Shown: piece after piece, positions 1,794 through 50,598 of the stretch
How positions within the stretch are numbered: position 1 is the first letter of the stretch
Layout of the letters: each line of letters opens with the position of its first letter
DNA from: an uncultured Acidimicrobiales bacterium
GTDB taxonomy: Bacteria > Actinomycetota > Acidimicrobiia > Acidimicrobiales > SHLQ01
Length of the DNA stretch: 64,000 bases
Reading direction: 5' to 3'
Assembly: GCA_938023735.1 (NCBI GenBank)
Contig: CALJDK010000025.1
Span: 97,057-161,056 of the forward strand
Translations under genes and position numbers: made by a program
The notes under the pieces: generated by a model
Seen by the model: the letters and a program-made list of their open reading frames with translations, nothing else
What the model was told of the DNA's origin: nothing
Databases searched by the model: none

Positions 1794-1822
1794 TTCGGCA
1801 GGCGGCACCCGTTGTGCTGCCG

Positions 1823-1914
1823 GGGAATAGAGCGGATAGGTCCGATTCCGAGTTTGCAAACCGCTCTATTCCAGGGGCTGGCCCATTGGCCTCCGGCCAA
1901 TCCGCGCAGCCCCC
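1823..1914. repeat. 92-bp dispersed palindromic element, copy 1
   Basis: This copy matches 50488-50579 at 89 of 92 bases. Arm A is an 11-bp inverted repeat, GAATAGAGCGG (1825-1835) with CCGCTCTATTC (1861-1871), around a 25-base loop. Arm B has outer GGGGCTG (1874-1880) with CAGCCCC (1907-1913) and inner ATTGGCC (1885-1891) with GGCCAAT (1895-1901). The right half lies inside the minus-strand gene 1866-2606 and encodes its last 15 or so residues and stop. It encodes no transposase, and I saw no target-site duplication. It resembles a REP/MITE-like or Rickettsia-palindromic-element-like sequence. Confidence 0.9.
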
Positions 1915-2606
1915 GGGTGCCCAAGAAACGTCGCTACTCCGCGCCCATCCACATGTTGGGTGAATGCGTTGTAGACCTCTTCGCCGACGAGTTCGATTAT
2001 CTCGTCGCGCAGAGTTTCATACACCGGGTGTACCTCGACGAACGCCTGATGGTCTTCGGTGCACCACCAATGGAATTCTTTGCCGCCGTCGCCCCAGTCG
2101 GTACGGGTCCACTCGCGCAGCATCATGACGGTTACGCCGTTTTCGTCGACATGGCTCTCGAGACGAAGCGGAAGTTGCCAGCAGACGTCGGGCTTCCAGT
2201 CGAGTGGCCGCTCGCCGTTGCGCAGAGCGGCCCGATGTAGAGCGCAGCCTGCCCCACCCGCGAAGTCGGGGCGGTTAAGAAACACACAGCCGCTTTGGGT
2301 TTGCGCGGTGAGTCGGGCGCCGTCGGCATCGGTGGCGATGACTTCGGGGGCATCGATGAACTGCCAATCGTCGGCGGTTAGACGCGATGCATGGGCAAGG
2401 ACCCGGTCGTGGTCGTCGTCGTCACTGAAATGGGCGCCATGCGAACAGCAACCCTGTTCGAGGCCTGGTGTCGGCCGATCGAGCACCCCGCTGCAGCCGT
2501 TGCCGAAAATGCAGGTCCAGTTGCTGGTGAGAAACGTTGCGTCAAGCATCCAAAGGTCGCCGTCGGTGTCGCGAAACGACACCCATTCGTGCAGATCGTC
2601 CACCAA
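1866..2606 (-). CDS. Cysteine-cluster protein resembling YkgJ/DUF3109
   Basis: This protein of about 246 residues has many Cys in spaced motifs. They are CIFGNGC near residues 31-37, GCCSHGAHF near 52-60, a later CVFLN, GCALHRA and KPDVCWQLPL. The CALH...KP..C..PL series resembles the metal- or Fe-S-binding cysteine clusters of YkgJ/DUF3109 proteins. The function is unknown. The C-terminal 15 or so residues (about 231 to the end) are encoded by the minus strand of the 92-bp repeat and are unlikely to be ancestral. The start lies just inside the 3' end of the upstream 68-residue gene, so the two are probably one operon. Confidence 0.7.
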   Translation of the reverse strand: MVDDLHEWVSFRDTDGDLWMLDATFLTSNWTCIFGNGCSGVLDRPTPGLEQGCCSHGAHFSDDDDHDRVLAHASRLTADDWQFIDAPEVIATDADGARLTAQTQSGCVFLNRPDFAGGAGCALHRAALRNGERPLDWKPDVCWQLPLRLESHVDENGVTVMMLREWTRTDWGDGGKEFHWWCTEDHQAFVEVHPVYETLRDEIIELVGEEVYNAFTQHVDGRGVATFLGHPGAARIGRRPMGQPLE

Positions 2607-19314: not shown

Positions 19315-19603
19315 AGTTCCCCGCCACGCTGAGTAACAACGGTGCCTGGAACCTAATCTGCTGCATCGCTGCAAACTCAGCGTCTTGAACTCGGTGCCTG
19401 GCACCATTTGGCGATTTGGTGCCAGGTCTGATCTCACTCACCGTGGTTTGGTGTCTGATCCCCTCGTCTAACCTTTGTCTGACACCAGGGGTTTGGTTCT
19501 TGGGGAATGTGGGCGTTGGCGGTGGGGACTTTGGGGTTGTGTCGAGCTGAATTCGGGGATTGAATCACACTGTTTTCGGTTGACCTCGGCTAGCTTCACG
19601 CTT
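19315..19603. other. Intergenic spacer rich in GGTGCC/GTGTC palindromic words
   Basis: This 289-base gap between arc and dop holds no gene. CGCTGAGT (19326-19333) and ACTCAGCG (19376-19383) form a wide inverted repeat. GGTGCC(T/A)GG occurs at 19341, 19393 and 19418, and the 19393 copy makes the palindrome GGTGCCTGGCACC. GGTGTCTGAT (19450) and GTCTGACACC (19477) form an imperfect inverted pair. These are plausible arc terminators. The dop promoter should lie at the right end. Confidence 0.6.
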
Positions 19604-49995: not shown

Positions 49996-50598
49996 GTGTC
50001 TCCCTTGGATTCGGCAGCCGATGGCCAGCACGCATTTGTGGTTACCGACCCGCTCGATGCCGCGGCAGTAGCTGCGCTCCAGAGCTACTTCGCTGAACTC
50101 GCCGACCGCTTCGACGATGGATTCGACGCCGGCGATGCGGTCACCGCCGATGCCGAATGGTTCACACCGCCCGCCGGAGTGTTCCTGCTGGCCGTGCACC
50201 CGACAACCGGAGCGACTCTGGGCTGTGGCGCCGTGCAGGTACTCGCCGATGGTGCTGCCGAAATCAAACGAATGTGGATTGACGGCGATGCCCGCGGGCA
50301 AGGACTCGGGAAGGGTCTCTTGCAGGAGCTCGAAACCCATGCCTTGGAGCTTGGCAACGGAGTGATTCGCCTGGACACCAACGACGTCCTGCTCGAAGCC
50401 ATTGCCATGTACCGCTCACAGGGGTACGTCGAGGTTGCGGCATACAACGACAACCCGTACGCCCGTCACTGGTTCGAAAAGGCGCCAGGGAATAGAGCGG
50501 ATAGGTCCGATTTCGAGTTTACAAACCGCTCTATTCCAGGGGCTGGCCCATTGGCCTCCGGCCAATCAGCGCAGCCCCCAGCGGAGGGGCAAGCGTAA
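49996..50598 (+). CDS. GNAT-family acetyltransferase with repeat-derived C-terminal tail
   Basis: This 200-residue protein has a GNAT core at roughly residues 30-160, with IKRMWIDGDARGQGLGKGLLQELE (the acetyl-CoA P-loop R/Q-x-x-G-x-G) and VIRLDTNDVLLEAIAMYRSQGYVE. The domain ends near YARHWFEKAP (residue 164), where relatives usually stop soon after. Residues 165-195 are encoded by the 92-bp dispersed repeat (50488-50579). The last few residues lead to a TAA that overlaps the next ATG (TAATG). The GTG at 49996 is chosen. Confidence 0.85.
   Translation: MSPLDSAADGQHAFVVTDPLDAAAVAALQSYFAELADRFDDGFDAGDAVTADAEWFTPPAGVFLLAVHPTTGATLGCGAVQVLADGAAEIKRMWIDGDARGQGLGKGLLQELETHALELGNGVIRLDTNDVLLEAIAMYRSQGYVEVAAYNDNPYARHWFEKAPGNRADRSDFEFTNRSIPGAGPLASGQSAQPPAEGQA
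50488..50579 (+). repeat. 92-bp dispersed palindromic element, copy 2
   Basis: This copy matches 1823-1914 with three mismatches. The first arm GAATAGAGCGG (50490-50500) pairs with CCGCTCTATTC (50526-50536). The second outer arm GGGGCTG (50539-50545) pairs with CAGCCCC (50572-50578). The element lies in frame in the GNAT gene and supplies about 31 C-terminal residues. Just after it, GCGGAGGGG (50581-50588) probably serves as the ribosome site of the following spermidine-synthase-like gene. Confidence 0.92.

Follow-up and report, generated by a model that had tools for sequence, protein, structure and literature searches.

The 92-nt repeat that occurs twice in the window (the whole analyzed stretch, 64,000 nt of an uncultured Acidimicrobiales bacterium) belongs to a dispersed, two-hairpin element found in a single bacterial genus. 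In our preferred reading, which we hold with about even confidence, the repeat is a non-autonomous, palindromic mobile element of the REP/Rickettsia palindromic element (RPE) kind, nested in RAYT-associated palindromes and putatively mobilized by RAYT. Some copies lie in frame within genes, and the host proteins carrying the ∼31 added amino acids still look intact. The original prediction had likened the repeat to REP, MITE, or RPE sequences; that likeness stands, but the prediction missed the palindrome-centered target, the repeated central base, and a second family.

The two window copies match at 89 of 92 positions, in agreement with the repeat as first reported (Table 1). Hairpin 1 has the 25-nt loop previously assigned to it, but its arm is 12 bp (GGAATAGAGCGG/CCGCTCTATTCC) rather than 11 bp. 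Hairpin 2 is formed, as described, by GGGGCTG/CAGCCCC enclosing ATTGGCC/GGCCAAT. Copy 1 provides a new C terminus and stop codon to the convergent gene on the minus strand, and the orthologous site in the congener G003 (L192) carries plain sequence without the element. Copy 2 is absent from the orthologues L074 and L189; without it, the acetyltransferase of the G003-type relative ends in FEKQVRS. The stop codon of the extended ORF still overlaps the start codon of the next gene. The gene adjoining copy 2 has a relative labeled uncultured Acidimicrobiales with 82% protein identity.

Table 1. Features of the two element copies in the window
Feature	Position	Strand	Comment
Family A copy 1, 92 nt	1823..1914	+	Between two convergent genes
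Copy 1 hairpin 1 left arm, 12 bp	1824..1835	+	
Copy 1 hairpin 1 right arm	1861..1872	+	
Copy 1 hairpin 2 outer left arm	1874..1880	+	
Copy 1 hairpin 2 inner stem	1885..1901	+	ATTGGCC-TCC-GGCCAAT
Copy 1 hairpin 2 outer right arm	1907..1913	+	
Copy 1 repeated central base G, left	1822..1822	.	Target GTGCTGCC-G-GGTGCCC
Copy 1 repeated central base G, right	1915..1915	.	
Gene with last codons and stop inside copy 1	1866..2606	-	G003 orthologue runs on without element
Family A copy 2, 92 nt	50488..50579	+	In frame, 3′ end of acetyltransferase gene
Copy 2 hairpin 1 left arm	50489..50500	+	
Copy 2 hairpin 1 right arm	50526..50537	+	
Copy 2 hairpin 2 outer left arm	50539..50545	+	
Copy 2 hairpin 2 inner stem	50550..50566	+	ATTGGCC-TCC-GGCCAAT
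Copy 2 hairpin 2 outer right arm	50572..50578	+	
Copy 2 repeated base A, left	50487..50487	.	
Copy 2 repeated base A, right	50580..50580	.	
GNAT-type acetyltransferase ORF	49996..50598	+	Extended by element peptide GNRADRSDFEFTNRSIPGAGPLASGQSAQPP; family name assigned by reading the sequence

We surveyed the host genome (G000), a metagenome-derived assembly of 4.68 Mb in 211 contigs that is 91% complete. It holds 16 full copies of this element (family A), several truncated ones, and one divergent one (L028), a copy number that excludes chance as the source of the repeat and bears out the expectation that the genome carries many copies. Matches L026 (19 nt) and L025, L027, L029, and L030 were weak and were not relied on. 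A covariance model built from family A retrieved a second family, B, with 18 copies; ten of these are identical and are, therefore, recent. The two families differ in sequence (92 nt in A, 94 nt in B) and share the same two-hairpin architecture, and their dispersed copies, flanked by unrelated sequence, have defined ends. Two congeners carry related copies (two in G003 and one in G002), and none was found in 56 genomes outside the genus under a stricter filter. The copy number and the congener copies also dispose of the case in which only two copies existed or the repeat was an artifact. Family A matched nothing in plasmid and phage records, its 17-base core had no exact match in viral contigs, and no longer element with the same ends, as a parent would have, appeared among the partial matches in the genome. 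Truncation is patterned: the A fragments L017–L022 and L024 keep the 5′ end, with L018, L019, L021, and L022 stopping at or beside base 53, and most of the B fragments L137–L144 keep the 3′ end. These truncated copies could be a separate one-hairpin unit or the product of recurrent deletion. The arrangement at L119 (contig C194) and L124 (contig C137) is a separate observation: the right flanks are near-identical, the element is inverted, and the left flanks differ, a pattern suggestive of recombination between copies or of variation in the assembly. The left and right central bases of L124 are unequal.

Compensatory change maintains the two-hairpin plan common to families A and B. Folding with RNA parameters gave z-scores of −2.3 to −4.4. 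Over A, B, and their relatives (27 distinct alignment rows), 12 of 29 pairs showed two-sided changes, and 97.6% of cells paired compared with 31–44% when partners were slid as a control; the alignment had been fitted to the model, so the 97.6% figure is biased toward it. Compensatory changes were also seen in alignment A2, which was not fitted to the model. The symmetry of the element resides in these two internal hairpins, which lie near both of its ends, as expected of an IS200/IS605-derived element; the ends themselves pair over a few G/C only and form no terminal inverted repeats. The element had no match in Rfam, and the A and B sequences have no GTAG or CGTC tetranucleotide at the hairpin foot.

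Family B copies and many family A copies sit at the exact center of a palindrome, GGTNYC-N-GRNACC, whose central base in most cases both precedes and follows the element, as in the nested copy ACGGTTCC-A-[element]-A-GACACCGT. The left flank of B copies reads GGT in 16 of 18, with C before the central base in all 18, and G follows that base on the right in all 18; the center is CA or CT in 17 of 18 B sites. Left and right central bases agree in 13 of 17 A copies and, as scored, in 15 of 18 B copies; correcting a one-base offset in L136 raises the B figure to 16 of 18. Base composition alone would give such agreement with probabilities of ∼5e-5 (A) and ∼5e-4 (B). These statistics disfavor the independence of the two central bases that simple IS605 chemistry would produce. 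IS200/IS605-derived elements are, moreover, expected to leave no target duplication, whereas one base is repeated in most copies here. Counting that base, an A copy adds 93 nt (31 codons) and a B copy 95 nt. The genome contains 307 occurrences of the palindrome GGTNYCNGRNACC vs. 20 of a reversed-pattern control. Around several intragenic A copies, window copy 2 included, the palindrome is weak.

Most copies are intergenic, just past the 3′ ends of genes and often between convergent genes (genes were called with a simple codon-score script rather than a standard gene finder). In five cases, a full A copy falls inside an ORF, each time in the direction of the gene and in the same frame, reading GNRADRSDFESANRSIPGAGPLASGQSAQPP. 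Truncated A copies keep the frame in four other ORFs (L026, in a fifth, is a weak match), as does the G003 copy inside a metallophosphoesterase gene; these truncated and G003 copies use the same frame as the full ones except L019, which is antisense. In all, about ten G000 genes and one G003 gene carry an in-frame family A insertion. Because family A has further open frames, this choice of frame is not forced by stop codons alone. At the insertion site of the DUF1688 protein, three orthologues are shorter by exactly 30–31 residues, and in comparisons with PDB structures, the extra residues coincide with the element in Lhr (L019) and in the G003 phosphoesterase (L106); for L018, the alignment ended short of the insertion. 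Comparison of orthologous loci, the check proposed with the original prediction, found the element absent from its site at three loci, the intergenic congener sites being too diverged for the junction to be read. A B copy, in contrast, would shift the frame by its 95 nt, and stop codons interrupt five of its six frames. None of the full B copies was found within an ORF; the end of one short, weakly predicted ORF overlaps with L129. At L007 1501, the element provides the G of the upstream gene’s TAG stop codon, where the empty site would give TAA.

A single Y1 transposase gene, a RAYT (PF01797; L031), was detected in the host genome. Target-type palindromes flank this gene as well as the PF01797 genes of G006, G009, G010, and G012. 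The RAYT gene has the target palindrome, rather than A or B, on its flanks; the A copy closest to it (L009) lies ∼4 kb away, and most copies have no adjoining transposase, consistent with the earlier remark that none is linked. For characterized REP transposases, the cleavage site on a single-stranded REP is CT or CA (PMC8266576). We favor RAYT because the palindromes flanking its own gene are the target, because such enzymes read hairpins, and because this CT/CA cleavage is known from REP transposases. Against it stand the lack of an adjoining transposase at most copies, the one-base duplication, the absence of a GTAG/CGTC tag, the weak intragenic palindromes, and the genome G001, which has three Y1 matches and no element, so that RAYT alone is insufficient. 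The RAYT/IS200-IS605 chemistry known so far would not lead one to expect a one-base duplication. The element would move as single-stranded DNA, its hairpins read by RAYT or another HUH enzyme, which would nick the target palindrome at the central C-N step and join the element there. An A insertion of 93 nt is divisible by three, and the peptide read from one strand frame is hydrophilic and probably disordered, which may be why genes tolerate this family; family B would be kept out by its frameshift and stops. A broader picture, which we offer tentatively, is a two-layer REP transposase system in which RAYT maintains the short palindromes and two-hairpin elements land at their centers, leave a one-base duplication, and diversify proteins in frame.

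The one-base repeat could also arise if the same element were moved by another enzyme, either a transposase that cuts double strands or a site-specific recombinase, whose cut in the CC-N-GG center is staggered by one base, that base then being duplicated. We regard this as a serious but clearly less probable alternative. It accounts for the match between left and right central bases beyond base-composition expectation, and the joined family ends (CCCCC-N-GGGAAT and GCTTCC-N-GGAAAC) resemble the target center; however, a profile search of the 91% complete genome for the IS110-type recombinase PF02371, the one REP-targeting group searched for, found none, and the missing longer element with the same ends also speaks against it. 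It is improbable that the copies have lost their mobility and spread chiefly through recombination or gene conversion among palindromic repeats. The near-identical flank with an inverted element at L119/L124 would fit such a history, as would the frequent occurrence of the palindromes in arrays, but the flanks of the ten identical B copies are unrelated, A copies occur in single genes far from arrays, and the element is absent from orthologous sites.

Retention as a functional RNA structure, a 3′-end stabilizer or attenuator rather than selfish DNA, seems to us quite unlikely. The strong fold, the covariation, and the position of most intergenic copies would suit such a role; the lack of an Rfam match and of a T-run terminator signature in the sequence, the scattered truncated copies, the unrelated neighboring genes, and the failure to find the element outside the genus do not. 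An assembly or binning artifact, which a metagenome assembly in 211 contigs might invite, is scarcely credible, since the copies lie inside contigs, each between flanks of its own, and divergent relatives occur in two other assemblies. Compared with these alternatives, a RAYT-mobilized element remains our preferred reading. The way in which REPs and Rickettsia-type palindromic elements move has yet to be settled, and a single genome here combines recent copies, hundreds of candidate empty targets, a single candidate enzyme, a covarying structure, and in-frame insertions in enzymes, making the mechanism testable. It also documents palindromic elements that insert into proteins in a lineage of actinobacteria.

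A REPIN consists of two inverted copies of one REP, unlike the present element, which has two differing hairpins and sits in a separate REP-like target. REPINs are outlined as ∼100-nt non-autonomous repeats connected with RAYTs (PMC3116915), and IS110/IS1111 elements are outlined as inserting at defined points of REPs (PMC1525189, PMC8450116); our element differs from the latter in encoding nothing and in residing in a genome where no IS110 transposase was detected. RPEs are short palindromic families with many in-frame intragenic copies and a conserved peptide (PMC10969869). Family A resembles them in lying in frame inside genes and encoding a conserved peptide; it differs, in a comparison by description only, in its phylum, its length (∼93 vs. 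∼150 nt), and its defined palindromic target with a repeated central base. GTAG/CGTC REPs are hairpin repeats that lie mostly after gene ends and in some cases in frame in genes, and REP dimers inside other palindromes are known from T. roseum (GTAG-23) and H. neapolitanus (CGTC-1), with many empty palindrome copies (PMC3733652). The present element shares the hairpins, the preference for gene ends, the occasional in-frame insertion, and, for some copies, the nesting in a palindrome family with many empty members, but it lacks the tag and has two unlike hairpins per unit, and it is the host palindromes that flank the RAYT gene. Those target palindromes (GGTNCCNGGNACC), a genome-wide family flanking a Y1 transposase gene, recall the TIR repeats of TIRYT tyrosine transposases in TIRtrons (PMC3733652), a likeness that belongs to them and not to the 92-nt element. 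Given the missing tag, the element’s own two-hairpin plan, and its own target, we file it apart from the RPE and REP families. It is best read as new to the Acidimicrobiales lineage, while in-frame palindromic elements, intragenic REPs, and nested REP dimers were already known.

Target-type palindromes also occur without the element. Three lie uninterrupted in the window, at 19341, 19393, and 25183. Palindromes of the target type also form short, regularly spaced arrays downstream of genes (L035–L037, L049–L052, L094, and L097). The target palindrome has a longer relative, CGACACAGGTGTC-N-GACACGAGTGTCG.
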